A program made the position numbers and the translations under genes. This document shows positions 13,552 through 18,559 of a stretch of DNA of 64,000 nt, one piece after another. The stretch covers positions 1-64,000 of the forward strand of contig JAGCGA010000036.1 of the NCBI GenBank assembly GCA_017649855.1. The letters run 5' to 3'. Below the pieces are notes generated by a model. It did no database searches. It saw only the letters and a program-made list of their open reading frames with translations, and was not told the origin of the DNA. The DNA is from Bacteroidales bacterium. GTDB taxonomy: Bacteria > Bacteroidota > Bacteroidia > Bacteroidales > WCHB1-69. Position 1 is the first letter of the stretch, and the number at the start of each line of letters is the position of its first letter.

Positions 13552-14691
13552 ATGAAAAATGTCGCCATCATCGGGGCCGGCGCGTCCGGACTGTTTCTCT
13601 CCCGACTGTTGAGGGAGCGTCCAGGCGTGGAGATCTATCTCTTTGAACGCTGCAAGCAGGTGGGCACCAAGTTGCGCGCCTCCGGCGGCGGCAAGGCCAA
13701 CATCTTCAACACCCTTGTCACCCCCGACTGCTACAATCACCCCGAATTCGCGACCAAGATTCTGGAAAAGGTCACCCCGAAAGATATGCGCAAAACCTTC
13801 GAGTCGTTTGGCTTGGAGATGTGCGTCGACGAGGAAGGTCGCGTCTATCCGCTGACACAGTTTTCCCAGACAGTAGTCGATATCTTATGGAATCCTGAGC
13901 ATCCTCGTATTCATCCTGTAATGGAATATGAGGTCTCACAGCTTATACGCAAGGGCGAACAGTGGTTTGTCAACGACTTCCCCACCGCCTTTGACACGGT
14001 GGTGCTGGCATCGGGCACTCCGGCTAACATAATCCCCAAAAACCGTCGGCATTACAACTCCTATCTCTCCGACCTCCAACTGGAGATCCATCCCTGGCAG
14101 CCCTCCCTGGTAGGCTTCAAGATTAAAGACTATCCCAAAAGTCTCGCTGGCTGCCGGGTGAAAGCCATCGCAAGTCTCTATCAAGGGCAGCAGCTGATCC
14201 ATGAAGAATTTGGAGAGATCACTTTCAAGGATGACGGCGTCTCGGGCATCGTGATCCTCAACTTGTCGGCCTATTACAACCGGCTGGACGACAAGCAGGA
14301 CTGCCGTATCGCCTTGAACTTCCTCTATGGCCGTGACTCCTTCGATGTGGCCGCGCACCTTCAGCAGCACGGCTCTTTGCAAGGCATCCTCCACCCCAAG
14401 CTGAATGCCCTGTACGAGCGCAAGCCTTTTGACATCCGCAACTTTATCCTCAAGGTGGAGGAACCTTATGACCTCACCTTCGCGCAGGTGTGCCACGGCG
14501 GCATTGACGTGAAGGAGATTGATGAACATCTGGCCATAAAGAAACACCCGTCTCTCTACGCCATGGGAGAGATGCTGGACATGGACGGCATCTGCGGGGG
14601 CTACAACCTCTTCTTCGCTTTCGCCACGGCCCTCATCGTTGCCGAGGAACTGTGCAAACCCTCAAAATATTCCCGCAGACCACGCAGATGA
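13552..14691 (+). CDS. BaiN/HI0933-family flavoprotein
   Basis: A 379-residue FAD-dependent oxidoreductase. The N-terminal Rossmann motif GAGASG (residues 8-13) binds FAD. The SGGGKANIFNT segment matches the SGGGRCNxTN motif of the HI0933-like family, and near the C-terminus GEMLDMDGICGGYNLFFAFA matches its closing FAD-contact motif. Cellular substrates are unknown for most members; BaiN reduces bile-acid intermediates in clostridia, but that role should not be assumed here. Likely cotranscribed with gmk. Confidence 0.88.
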   Translation: MKNVAIIGAGASGLFLSRLLRERPGVEIYLFERCKQVGTKLRASGGGKANIFNTLVTPDCYNHPEFATKILEKVTPKDMRKTFESFGLEMCVDEEGRVYPLTQFSQTVVDILWNPEHPRIHPVMEYEVSQLIRKGEQWFVNDFPTAFDTVVLASGTPANIIPKNRRHYNSYLSDLQLEIHPWQPSLVGFKIKDYPKSLAGCRVKAIASLYQGQQLIHEEFGEITFKDDGVSGIVILNLSAYYNRLDDKQDCRIALNFLYGRDSFDVAAHLQQHGSLQGILHPKLNALYERKPFDIRNFILKVEEPYDLTFAQVCHGGIDVKEIDEHLAIKKHPSLYAMGEMLDMDGICGGYNLFFAFATALIVAEELCKPSKYSRRPRR

Positions 14692-14753: not shown

Positions 14754-14761
14754 TATTTTTG
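14754..14761 (+). promoter_or_regulatory. -7 promoter box of module 1
   Basis: TATTTTTG, 26 bases before the ATG of the truncated protease gene, so the remnant is probably still transcribed. Confidence 0.55.
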
Positions 14762-14787: not shown

Positions 14788-15048
14788 ATGAAAATATTTA
14801 TCCCCGTTATCGGTTTCGCAACCCTCCTTGCTTTTTCCTTTTTCGGATGCGAAAAGGATAAAGACCTGCATCCCGCCTCTCTGAAAAACTCCTCTTTTGA
14901 CTTCAACTCCATCATGCTCTATGGCTCCACCGCTTGTCAGAAAAACAGTTCGGTTTATACCCTGGTAAAACTAGATAGTACACACTTCACTTCACCTCTC
15001 TATATTTCGGAGACAGATGAGTATGTTATACAACAGATTTATGATTAA
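14788..15048 (+). pseudogene. Truncated astacin-type protease lipoprotein (module 1)
   Basis: An 86-residue open frame. The lipoprotein signal ends FSFFGC (Cys21) and is followed by ASLKNSSF, as in the full gene at 15944. The frame then jumps to FDFNSIMLYG, the astacin Met-turn (Met43), and the last ~50 residues of the protease. Relative to the downstream gene, 948 bp (316 codons) carrying the whole zinc site are missing, and the frame is kept. The junction falls at a TTTGA present at both borders in the intact gene. The product could still be an exported lipidated peptide, but it cannot be a protease. It keeps its promoter and is followed at once by a partner gene. Confidence 0.85.
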
Positions 15049-15062
15049 TAACAATCTCTATC
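14932..15062 (+). repeat. 131-bp identical direct repeat, copy 1
   Basis: Identical base for base to 17042-17172. It covers the 3' end of the truncated protease frame and the spacer up to the base before the partner start codon. Flanking sequence is diverged. Confidence 0.9.
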
Positions 15063-15779
15063 ATGAAAAAATACATTTGTCTATTATCACTGGTTTTATT
15101 GGCAAGTTTGACATTTGACACTTGTGCTGTTGATCCCATTTGTGCTTTTCCTTATGATTACGCCTCCTTGGCAACGACATATGAGACTTATCTTATAAAT
15201 ACGCTGGAATACCCTATAATAGTTCAGTCTTATTATGTCCCTTTTCACAACAATATGAACTGGGCATCCGAAAATGAGGAGAAAACATTCGGCTCACCCG
15301 TCACCATCCAGCCCGGAGAAGCCAAAGTTATTATGGATTACGTTCACCCTACCAGAATAGTCATATGGGCTGATCAGACTGGAGATCTTTTATATGAATA
15401 CCAACAGAAAGCTCCCTTTCAAGAAATGTATCCCATAGACGACACGGTTCTGAAGAGAATCGTCAAGCCTGATTCAAGTTTTGGATTCCTACCTGTAGAA
15501 GCAGTTTTGTTGGATCTGGAGCACTGTCAGTATGGCTACTATTGGAATGCCTCTTTTGAGAAGAATGATCGATATCTATCTCAGAATATTGATTGGGAGG
15601 AATATCCTATTTGGTATCAATTTTCAGATGTAAACCGATATTTTTTTAACAGTATCTATCCAGAAGAAGAACGTCTGTCAAGACTTGAAGAAGATCGCTT
15701 AGGTCATTATCTCAACGGCTATACATTAGTCCAGTTCCTGACCACCAACAACGCCGCGGCCTGCTTCCAGCGCAAATGA
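15063..15779 (+). CDS. Protease-partner protein (module 1)
   Basis: A 238-residue protein beginning with a hydrophobic export signal; Cys21 (FDTC) might be a lipid-attachment site, but the lipobox is poor. It is homologous over its whole length to the protein at 17173. Shared blocks are INTLEYPI, TIQPGEAKVIMDY, YEYQQK with PFxEMYP, FGFLP, QNIDWEEYPIWYQ and the closing VQFLTTNNAAACFQ. I recognise no family. It follows the truncated protease gene by 14 bases. Its consistent pairing with an exported astacin-type protease suggests a partner role such as inhibitor, chaperone or substrate; this is inference. Confidence 0.8.
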   Translation: MKKYICLLSLVLLASLTFDTCAVDPICAFPYDYASLATTYETYLINTLEYPIIVQSYYVPFHNNMNWASENEEKTFGSPVTIQPGEAKVIMDYVHPTRIVIWADQTGDLLYEYQQKAPFQEMYPIDDTVLKRIVKPDSSFGFLPVEAVLLDLEHCQYGYYWNASFEKNDRYLSQNIDWEEYPIWYQFSDVNRYFFNSIYPEEERLSRLEEDRLGHYLNGYTLVQFLTTNNAAACFQRK

Positions 15780-15910
15780 TAGAAGACTGCATTCCTTAAT
15801 TCCCACATTCTTTCTGCCCATCCAGCGGTTCCGCAACAGATTTTAACGCGGAAATAACGGCAATGCACGGAAAAAATTTCTGGATAATTATGTTATAGGT
15901 AAATAATTTG

Positions 15911-15918
15911 TATTTTTG
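15911..15918 (+). promoter_or_regulatory. -7 promoter box of module 2
   Basis: TATTTTTG, 25 bases before the ATG at 15944. An upstream in-frame TTG at 15908 overlaps it and is therefore rejected as start. Confidence 0.6.
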
Positions 15919-15943
15919 CTGGATGAATTCATATCTCTTTATC

Positions 15944-17158
15944 ATGAAAAGGACTTTCCTCGTATTTCTATTTGCCCTCACCTGCCTATTTTCTGTTTTC
16001 TTCTTCGGATGTGGAAAGGAAGAAATATCGAATCACGCCTCTCTAAAAAACTGTTCTTTTGAGGACAATCCCTATTCTTATCTTCAAAACAAATATGCAG
16101 ATTCCATTCTTAGTTATGAGTATAGAAAAATGGGATTGACGTATGTTTCGGACATGTTTCTCTTGGAAGAGAAGATTGCAGCAATTCTGGCGTTAGATGA
16201 AGAGCTCTCGGCTAACGAAGAAGACGAGTCCCGCGAAGATGCGCTTTTCTATAACAGGTTGTCACAATCCCTCATGACAGAAATCAACCATCATCCTTAT
16301 ATTCAAGATATTGTCAGCCGTTATGCCATATTGGAAGACTATGATGCAAACGATATCAACATGCCTTTCGGTTATGATTGCAACGACTTCATTTCCAAAC
16401 TTCAAATCTTGAAATATTATGAAGAAGACTTAGATGTGGCTGATTATTTTGACCAACGAAATGAATTAACAGGAAACGAGGTGTGGGGTGGTATAGAAGA
16501 ATTTTGGACGACTTCCAATCCGAGAGGAATACAGTACACGTTACATAACAAATGGGCAAATAACACGGTAGATTATATGTGGAACACCTCAAACTCCACA
16601 ATCAGATCCAACATGCAAACAGCCATGCAAGATTGGAGGTCGGCCAGCAACAGCCATATCACCTTTAAAGAGATAACCAAACACAAATCAAGGAACATTA
16701 CGCTATGGTTGTTGGGATGGAAATACTTTATTCGCATAAACGCTTCCAATTCACACAATTACCAAGGAAGATCCACCTTGGGAATGGTACCTTGGGCTAC
16801 CATAAGAATAAAGCCCCCTACGGGTGACAACACCGTAATTTCCACCTGCCGTCATGAAATGGGACATTCCTTGGGACTCCTGCATGAGCACCAGCGGCCC
16901 GACAGGGATGATTACATCATTTACCAACCTCAAAACGTTAAAATTGGAATGAGGGCCCAATTTGTAAAGCCTCCAGCCGGCTCTTACAACTATCATAGCT
17001 CCACCTTTGATTTTGAATCCATTATGCTTTATGGATCCACTGCTTGTCAGAAAAACAGTTCGGTTTATACCCTGGTAAAACTAGATAGTACACACTTCAC
17101 TTCACCTCTCTATATTTCGGAGACAGATGAGTATGTTATACAACAGATTTATGATTAA
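15944..17158 (+). CDS. Astacin-family (M12A) zinc metalloprotease lipoprotein (module 2)
   Basis: A 404-residue protein. The lipoprotein signal ends VFFFGC (Cys23). Residues ~30-190 form a charged pro-region-like part. The catalytic domain follows (about 200-404), with the full astacin signature HEMGHSLGLLHEHQRPDRD: His304, His308 and His314 are zinc ligands, Glu305 the catalytic base. The Met-turn SIMLYG has Met361. Astacins are endopeptidases usually made as inactive precursors. Lipidation would place it at the envelope, perhaps the outer membrane. The partner gene begins 14 bases after the stop. The unit is the intact copy of a tandem duplication. Confidence 0.88.
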   Translation: MKRTFLVFLFALTCLFSVFFFGCGKEEISNHASLKNCSFEDNPYSYLQNKYADSILSYEYRKMGLTYVSDMFLLEEKIAAILALDEELSANEEDESREDALFYNRLSQSLMTEINHHPYIQDIVSRYAILEDYDANDINMPFGYDCNDFISKLQILKYYEEDLDVADYFDQRNELTGNEVWGGIEEFWTTSNPRGIQYTLHNKWANNTVDYMWNTSNSTIRSNMQTAMQDWRSASNSHITFKEITKHKSRNITLWLLGWKYFIRINASNSHNYQGRSTLGMVPWATIRIKPPTGDNTVISTCRHEMGHSLGLLHEHQRPDRDDYIIYQPQNVKIGMRAQFVKPPAGSYNYHSSTFDFESIMLYGSTACQKNSSVYTLVKLDSTHFTSPLYISETDEYVIQQIYD

Positions 17159-17172
17159 TAACAATCTCTATC
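17042..17172 (+). repeat. 131-bp identical direct repeat, copy 2
   Basis: Identical to 14932-15062, 2110 bp downstream. Ends one base before the TTG start of the second partner gene, where copy 1 continues with ATG. Confidence 0.9.
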
Positions 17173-17856
17173 TTGAAAAAACTTATCCATCTATTTATAT
17201 GTCTGCTTGCCTTTTTGACAATTTCATGCATCTGTGTATATCCAGATGATACATTTGGGTATATGGAAATTCCTTTTCCCGTCGAGACCTTTTTGCTAAA
17301 CACTTTGGATTATCCTATCGAAGTGCAATGCTACTACATTCCTTACAACAACAACCACACTTCAGGTTGGATTAACCATGAAGAGAAAATTTTTGGAGAC
17401 CCCGTCATCATTCAGCCAAGGGAGGCCAAAGTCATTATGGATTATGTTCTCCCCACAAAACTTGTCATCCGGAATGCGAATTCAGGCACACTTTTGTGGG
17501 AATATCAACAAAAACCTCCTTTCAAAGAGATGTATCCTACCCATGATGAAGCCTTGATAAGATTGGCAATGCCCGAAGAATCTTATGGCTTTTTGCCTAC
17601 AGATTCAGTTTTGCATATATATCCCCTCAACCCCGATGATTTTGCAACGGCTTGGTGGGACAAACAAGACCGGTATTTAGCACAAAACATTGACTGGGCG
17701 GAATATCCCATTTGGTACCAATATTTTTACGAAATAGACAACTCTTCCCATACGGAAAGTGGTAGAGTTAACTTCTATAGAGAAAACGCCAACGGTTATG
17801 CGGTAGTCCAGTTCCTGACCACCAACCATGCCGCGGCCTGCTTCCAGTGCCAATAA
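17173..17856 (+). CDS. Protease-partner protein (module 2), TTG start
   Basis: A 227-residue homologue of the protein at 15063, about half identical by eye. The TTG start at 17173 is chosen because the signal-like MKKLIHLFICLLAFLTISC follows directly and aligns with the ATG of the first copy; no ATG is suitably placed. Cys19 after LTIS is a plausible lipid-attachment site. Most divergence is in the middle and before the C-terminus, while the closing VQFLTTNHAAACFQ block is nearly identical, also in DNA. The stop lies 4 bases from the stop of the convergent bifunctional-nuclease gene, with no terminator between. Function unknown. Confidence 0.8.
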   Translation: MKKLIHLFICLLAFLTISCICVYPDDTFGYMEIPFPVETFLLNTLDYPIEVQCYYIPYNNNHTSGWINHEEKIFGDPVIIQPREAKVIMDYVLPTKLVIRNANSGTLLWEYQQKPPFKEMYPTHDEALIRLAMPEESYGFLPTDSVLHIYPLNPDDFATAWWDKQDRYLAQNIDWAEYPIWYQYFYEIDNSSHTESGRVNFYRENANGYAVVQFLTTNHAAACFQCQ

Positions 17857-17860
17857 CAAC

Positions 17861-18559
17861 TCACCCCCGCTTGTCAAGCTCCTGCTGGATCTTCTCCGCG
17901 AGTTCGTAGTCCTCGCTGTCCACCGCGGCATCCAACAGTTCCAGCAGCTCCTCCTTCGACATCTCAGCCAACTCGATACTGAACTCCGCTTCCCTCGATT
18001 CATTTTCTTCTTCAAGCAATCCTTCATGGTCATAAACCTCCATTGGGGCATTAAATGCGGGTCCTTCCTCAGGCTTTTCGTCATCTGCTTGATAATTCTC
18101 CTCGAAAATGTCGGAGCGGATATGGATCATCACCCCCAACTTTAAGGCTAATGCGATAGCATCGGAGGGACGGGCATCGATGTGGATGGTCTTGCCGTTC
18201 TGGTGGTTGATCAACACCATGTCTGCGTAATAGACCCCGTTTTCATAATGGATGATATTGACCATCAGCAGATCGCAGCGCGTATGCAGCGACAGCGTGT
18301 GGAAGAGTTCGTGGGTGAGCGGCCGATGCGTGGGCAACTTGTTCAGCTCCACCAGTATAGCTCTCGCCTCACTTTGGCCAATAATGATGGAGATGTAGCG
18401 GTTTGTGGGAACCTGATGGGTGCCTTGCTCGTCTTGCTCTTCACGGAGCTCCCGCAGGATGAGGGAAAAGGCATCCGTGGTTTGCGGAGAAGGCAAGACA
18501 TCCTCCACTCTCAGCTCTATCAGGCCGTTTTGCTCGGTGTTGGGGTTTGGAGTTTCCAT
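17861..18559 (-). CDS. Bifunctional nuclease-family (DUF151) protein with UVR motif
   Basis: A 232-residue protein. Residues ~15-150 form the DUF151/bifunctional-nuclease domain (RYISIIIGQSEARAI and the conserved IDARPSDAIALAL block). An acidic linker follows, and the last ~35 residues (EELLELLDAAVDSEDYELA) form a UvrB/UvrC-type helical hairpin. Family members have been described with RNase and DNase activity in plants; bacterial roles are poorly known. The ATG overlaps the purL stop by one base (TAATG), so translation is probably coupled to purL. Confidence 0.85.
   Translation of the reverse strand: METPNPNTEQNGLIELRVEDVLPSPQTTDAFSLILRELREEQDEQGTHQVPTNRYISIIIGQSEARAILVELNKLPTHRPLTHELFHTLSLHTRCDLLMVNIIHYENGVYYADMVLINHQNGKTIHIDARPSDAIALALKLGVMIHIRSDIFEENYQADDEKPEEGPAFNAPMEVYDHEGLLEEENESREAEFSIELAEMSKEELLELLDAAVDSEDYELAEKIQQELDKRG

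Follow-up and report, generated by a model that had tools for sequence, protein, structure and literature searches.

It was found that a window of 64,000 nucleotides from a Bacteroidales bacterium (the whole stretch of DNA analyzed here) contains two consecutive units, each with a gene for an astacin-type lipoprotein, a 14-bp spacer, and a gene for an exported partner protein. The astacin gene is complete in unit 2 and reduced to a remnant in unit 1, while both partner genes are intact. This order and spacing had been claimed in the original prediction, and both were confirmed, with the coordinates, in the two units. I tentatively propose, with a probability of about 40%, that the partner may restrain the protease or protect its producer by a logic like that of the potempins, and that orphan copies of the partner would be immunity genes. 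The features of the locus are as follows.

13552–14691, plus strand: oxidoreductase gene, left flank, convergent with the right flank
14754–14761, plus strand: TATTTTTG, Bacteroidota -7-like box, 34 bp 5′ of the unit 1 start
14788–15048, plus strand: unit 1 astacin remnant, 86 aa
14931–15062, plus strand: 132-bp tract that recurs with 100% identity in unit 2, where it comprises the 3′ end of the astacin gene and the spacer (blastn, unit 1 vs. unit 2)
15049–15062: spacer of unit 1, 14 bp between the remnant and partner 1
15063–15779, plus strand: partner 1, exported protein, 238 aa
15911–15918, plus strand: TATTTTTG, -7-like box, 33 bp 5′ of the unit 2 start
15944–17158, plus strand: unit 2 astacin (M12A) lipoprotein, 404 aa, MKRTF start, inside a 416-aa ORF from 15908
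17159–17172, plus strand: spacer of unit 2, 14 bp between the astacin and partner 2, same sequence as the unit 1 spacer
17173–17856, plus strand: partner 2, exported protein with the lipobox TISC, 227 aa, TTG start
17861–18559, minus strand: nuclease-like gene, right flank

A Complete Astacin and a Protease Remnant

The zinc site of unit 2 had been predicted to be intact, and this is the case. The sequence HEMGHSLGLLHEHQRPDRD is present at residue 304 of the astacin and agrees with HEXXHXXGXXH followed by EXXRXDRD, and SIMLY at residue 359 is a Met-turn of the SIMHY type. These are the motifs that define the M12A astacins (PMC9848320). The Pfam Astacin model PF01400 matches the protein with E = 6e-23 and 81.9 bits (cut-off 22.5), which places it in the family, and a profile search of the PDB with it retrieved myroilysin and animal astacins. 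The protein thus shares HEXXHXXGXXHEXXRXDRD, the SIM-Y Met-turn, and the PF01400 match with the bacterial M12A astacins myroilysin, flavastacin, and LegP. Unlike these, it is a lipoprotein, has a long helical pro-region with an LTG-x-E-x-W motif, and is coupled to an exported partner. The residues C-G-K-E-E after the lipidated Cys fit, as a motif match, the surface-export (LES) signal C-X-K-(D/E)2-X. This signal was defined in Capnocytophaga as the optimal one for lipoproteins (PMC5080379); other Bacteroidetes use other consensus forms. The unit 2 product is probably a lipid-anchored astacin exposed on the cell surface. None of the partners carries C-X-K-(D/E)2.

The pro-region of the astacin is long and mostly helical, and it is the only part visible in a poor structure model (mean pLDDT 42.2). 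The aspartate-switch motif FXGD(I) of animal astacins was not found in the pro-regions of the four members of this astacin subfamily (0/4), in which LTG-x-E-x-W is invariant. The bacterial myroilysin likewise has no FXGD (PMC9848320). The lack of this motif leaves room for another way of controlling the astacin.

In the unit 1 remnant, a lipoprotein signal peptide and lipobox are joined in frame to the last ~50 residues of the astacin, from the Met-turn SIMLY onward. A TTTGA microhomology marks the deletion joint, at which the pro-region and the catalytic zinc site have gone. HEXXH is missing from the 86-aa product, and with it the zinc-binding site of an active astacin; the PF01400 score of the remnant, 20.1 bits, is below the cut-off of 22.5. 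The identity between the units is about 80% just 5′ of the 132-bp tract and about 70% in the partner genes 3′ of it, and the tract ends exactly at the start codon of the partner. Since 132 bp are identical up to this point, this junction was homogenized recently; the tract is a signature of gene conversion or unequal exchange in the recent past. The C-terminus and the stop codon of the partners are spanned by another well-conserved block (57/65 bp). At position 17173, partner 2 has TTG where unit 1 and a sister species have ATG in an otherwise identical junction, so translation of partner 2 is possibly lowered. The -7-like boxes were found with the pattern TANNTTTG and are consensus matches; no -33 box was found at a fixed spacing to them. 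With a -7-like box in front of each unit, partner 1 may still be expressible behind the remnant.

The Partner Family and Its Distribution

Partners 1 and 2 are homologous over their entire length, with 52% identity by search and 55% in the alignment, a similarity far above chance level (E = 9e-61 in a tblastn-type search), and both end in VQFLTTN-AAACFQ, as had been noticed before. The family was predicted to be an unrecognized one; indeed, partner 1 has no match in Pfam, NCBIfam, or PADLOC. A lipobox is clear in partner 2 (TISC) and in the G024 partner (TSC), is seen by eye in G001 (GTSC), and is doubtful in partner 1 (FDTC). A profile built from five partners found no PDB chain at E ≤ 10, a search that covers sequence relation and that a shared fold could escape. 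The AlphaFold model of the partner is poor (mean pLDDT 43.7); in it, residues 38–112 form a beta unit of six strands, for most of which the pLDDT is about 60–78. Foldseek gave no match below E = 0.2 with this model. VIA-align of the same low-confidence model matched a variety of beta-sandwiches, C2 domains among them, with Z ≤ 5.2, which is uninformative. Two other ideas on the partner were dropped. VQFLTTN-AAACFQ as an element for mobility or sorting was rejected, since 5/5 proteins of the family share it as their C-terminus (VQFLTTNxxAxCF) and searches with the partner proteins found only two copies in the genome. A phage or plasmid origin was rejected, as there was no match in plasmids, viral contigs, or PADLOC, and one noise-level match in PHROGs (E = 0.2).

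The partner was searched by single sequence and by profile in 148 relatives, 104 genomes of the family, and 393 genomes of the order. The partner family was found in only four of the 40 genomes of the genus, namely the window genome, G038, G001, and G024. Profile matches outside the genus were partial and at noise level (E ≥ 0.0045, 13–18 bits). All five partner copies are intact.

The array lies at an insertion site. In four congeners, the oxidoreductase and nuclease-like genes adjoin each other, with 8–12 bp between them in G024, G010, and G037 and 87 bp in G001. Thus, the 3.1-kb array is an insertion, carried by the window genome and by its sister species G038 (RGIG7025, sheep rumen). The insertion has replaced the end of the oxidoreductase gene (14650–14691), whose product ends in KPSKYSRRPRR, unlike those of all four empty-site relatives. 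At the other end, the stop codon of partner 2 lies 4 bp from the convergent nuclease gene. In G038, the array has a frameshifted astacin remnant and, after it, a partner that shares 99% identity with partner 2. Over 227 codons, these two partner genes are separated by two substitutions, both nonsynonymous, whereas identity in the DNA on either side is about 92–93.5%; this suggests a recent exchange between the species. Two G038 contigs (C80 and C109; L009 and L023) break inside the remnant and overlap as 99% identical variants, one of which has a -7-like box short of one base. C109 stops exactly at the spacer, and this break may reflect strain differences in the downstream content.

G001 and G024 each have one solitary partner, located between an acyltransferase gene and a FISUMP-type gene; the same site in G000 and G010 has no partner. 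A PF01400 search of G001 (84% complete) and G024 (98% complete) gave no match. The dN/dS ratio between their partners is 0.14 at a dS of 1.76, which is near saturation. Thus, purifying selection acts on the partner even in genomes that have no astacin.

Another Partner Family behind Related Astacins

The only full-length relatives of the unit 2 astacin subfamily were found in G054 (50% identity) and G072 (45% identity), which belong to the same family outside the genus. In both, a small lipoprotein gene (142–146 aa) lies 11–12 bp 3′ of the astacin gene, compared with 14 bp in the window. Homology of the window partner to this lipoprotein was considered and rejected (hhalign probability 2%). 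Among the 104 genomes of the family, searches detected close relatives of this lipoprotein in G054 and G072 only, and the G054 protein alone has a weak likeness, below the model cut-off, to TIGR04134 (‘radical SAM-associated putative lipoprotein’). Since the G054 and G072 lipoproteins form one family, the comparison includes two independent partner families, and one stands in place of the other. What is conserved is therefore the arrangement of a surface astacin followed by a small exported protein, rather than a partner family. Ten more distant Bacteroidia astacins that could be evaluated, judged by eye from ORF translations, have no exported ORF on the same strand within 60 bp (0/10). The tightly coupled exported partner is thus found in 3/3 vs. 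0/10 cases (Fisher p about 0.0035, a statistic that ignores relatedness). The solitary partners and the other partner family together indicate that neither is the partner obligate for the protease nor the protease for the partner, and the pairing looks like an optional one of a protease with its restraint.

Two further loci of this kind were noted. G047 has an astacin pseudogene consisting of the pro-region only (L022, 2237–2920), the reverse of the window remnant, with no lipoprotein partner beside it. In G054, a large gene, M64/IgA-peptidase-like by eye, lies directly 3′ of the astacin/lipoprotein pair (L020, 3270–6419).

Proposed Restraint of the Protease and Other Explanations

In the potempin/KLIKK pairs of Tannerella forsythia, small inhibitory lipoproteins are encoded directly 5′ of their own proteases, and each is specific to the neighboring protease (PMC7296668). 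The locus resembles these operons in that an exported protease gene of Bacteroidales adjoins a gene for a small exported protein, a probable lipoprotein in partner 2 and a doubtful one in partner 1, and in that one genome has several protease/partner pairs. It differs in that the partner gene lies 3′ of the protease gene, whereas the potempin gene lies 5′. The KLIKK proteases are not known to belong to the same astacin subfamily as the protease of unit 2. The partner has no detectable sequence relation to any PDB chain, and hence to any inhibitor among these chains. For this reason, it is only proposed that the partner works like the potempins, and no membership is claimed. Among the papers searched, none relevant to Bacteroidetes astacin lipoproteins with inhibitors was found.

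In the proposed mechanism, unit 2 would co-express a surface astacin with a small exported partner, which would bind the protease and restrain it on the producing cell. Either the protease would be blocked until it has reached the surface, or the envelope of the producer would be protected, as with immunity and inhibitor lipoproteins. A surface protease whose partner stays behind on the periplasmic side of the outer membrane, or is not anchored, would be consistent with restraint ahead of export or with a protective role for the producing cell. Partner genes would be gained, exchanged, and kept after the loss of the protease, and the partners of unit 1, of the sister species, and of G001 and G024 would provide orphan protection against the astacins of relatives. 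The persistence of the partner under constraint without a protease is as expected of orphan protection genes. The recurrence of the arrangement with a different partner in the related operons argues that the slot itself matters. Counting against restraint, the partner sequence has no similarity to known inhibitors, and the family, as far as the searched sequences tell, is next to an intact astacin in one genome only. Two of the four partner genomes have no astacin at all, which also counts against restraint.

The main rival explanation, which is only somewhat less probable, is that the partner is a stand-alone, genus-specific lipoprotein of the envelope, for example one that binds surface glycans or proteins. 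In the window lineage, an insertion or duplication would have brought it behind an astacin, with the tight spacing being incidental. The partners of G001 and G024, which occupy the acyltransferase/FISUMP site by themselves, in genomes where PF01400 has no match, and are yet constrained (dN/dS 0.14), are well explained in this way, and so are the related astacins that manage without the partner family. Incidental placement does not predict, however, that the independent G054 and G072 operons also have a tightly coupled small lipoprotein, and the coupling to astacin sequence is common to the two window units and one sister unit. The partner as a helper of the protease is unlikely. It might assist folding, export, or anchoring, or it might bind the substrate as a subunit of a surface complex; the order of protease then partner in co-expression and the export of both fit such a role, and the exchange of partners between lineages also fits an adaptor. 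A dedicated helper would not be expected to be kept where the protease has gone (G001 and G024) or is a remnant (unit 1 and G038), and astacins normally fold via their own pro-region, which is present here. It is a little less likely still that the locus is a genomic island in decay that at present serves no adaptive purpose, in which the remnant, the TTG start, and the sister frameshift are signs of ongoing loss. The lost base of the -7-like box on one sister contig with a frameshifted remnant, the remnant in the window, and the pro-region-only astacin of G047 are consistent with decay. So is the presence of the array in only two of the congeners examined, against an empty site in four others. 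On the other hand, the unit 2 astacin is complete with all its catalytic motifs, the partner is intact in every copy, and dN/dS is well under 1 between diverged copies.

The original prediction held that the partner serves the protease, which is partly supported. The 14-bp coupling and the G054/G072 layout support this, while the solitary partners without an astacin and the different partner family in those operons weaken it. Partner homologs lying mostly away from astacins had been named as evidence against it, and this is partly what was found, with an adjoining intact astacin in one of the four genomes. The predicted resemblance to orphan immunity genes of toxin loci holds in that an intact protector-like gene lies beside the remnant of a lost protease, as in the window and in G038, or stands by itself, as in G001 and G024, although this fits an independent function equally. 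The locus is unlike toxin loci in having no polymorphic toxin or secretion signature; any action would be via the protease.

If the partner is an inhibitor, it would represent a new, genus-restricted family of protease inhibitors. The protease-plus-lipoprotein-inhibitor layout of Tannerella would then extend to astacins of gut Bacteroidales, and the orphan copies would point to proteolytic competition. I consider it rather improbable, but worth stating, that every member of this surface-anchored astacin subfamily in gut Bacteroidales comes with a small exported protector, that unrelated families can be swapped into the slot, and that protectors outlive their protease and spread as orphans against the proteases of congeners, as in a protease-based rivalry. 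If the partner is not an inhibitor, it is still a new family of small lipoproteins with a clear evolutionary record of insertion, decay, gene conversion, and solitary copies, and a reminder that close spacing of genes in a single genome is no proof of functional dependence.

Genes around the Solitary Partners

In G024, the solitary partner is separated from the acyltransferase gene by an ORF that by eye resembles a RelE/ParE toxin (L008, 8197–8502, minus strand); no such ORF is seen at the same place in G001. The FISUMP-type gene by the solitary partner (L007, 6882–8279; L008, 9762–11159; L093 and L094) is near-identical between G001 and G024, with a dS of 0.05, while the acyltransferase gene adjoining it has a dS of 0.87. 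This difference suggests that the FISUMP-type gene was exchanged between the species.
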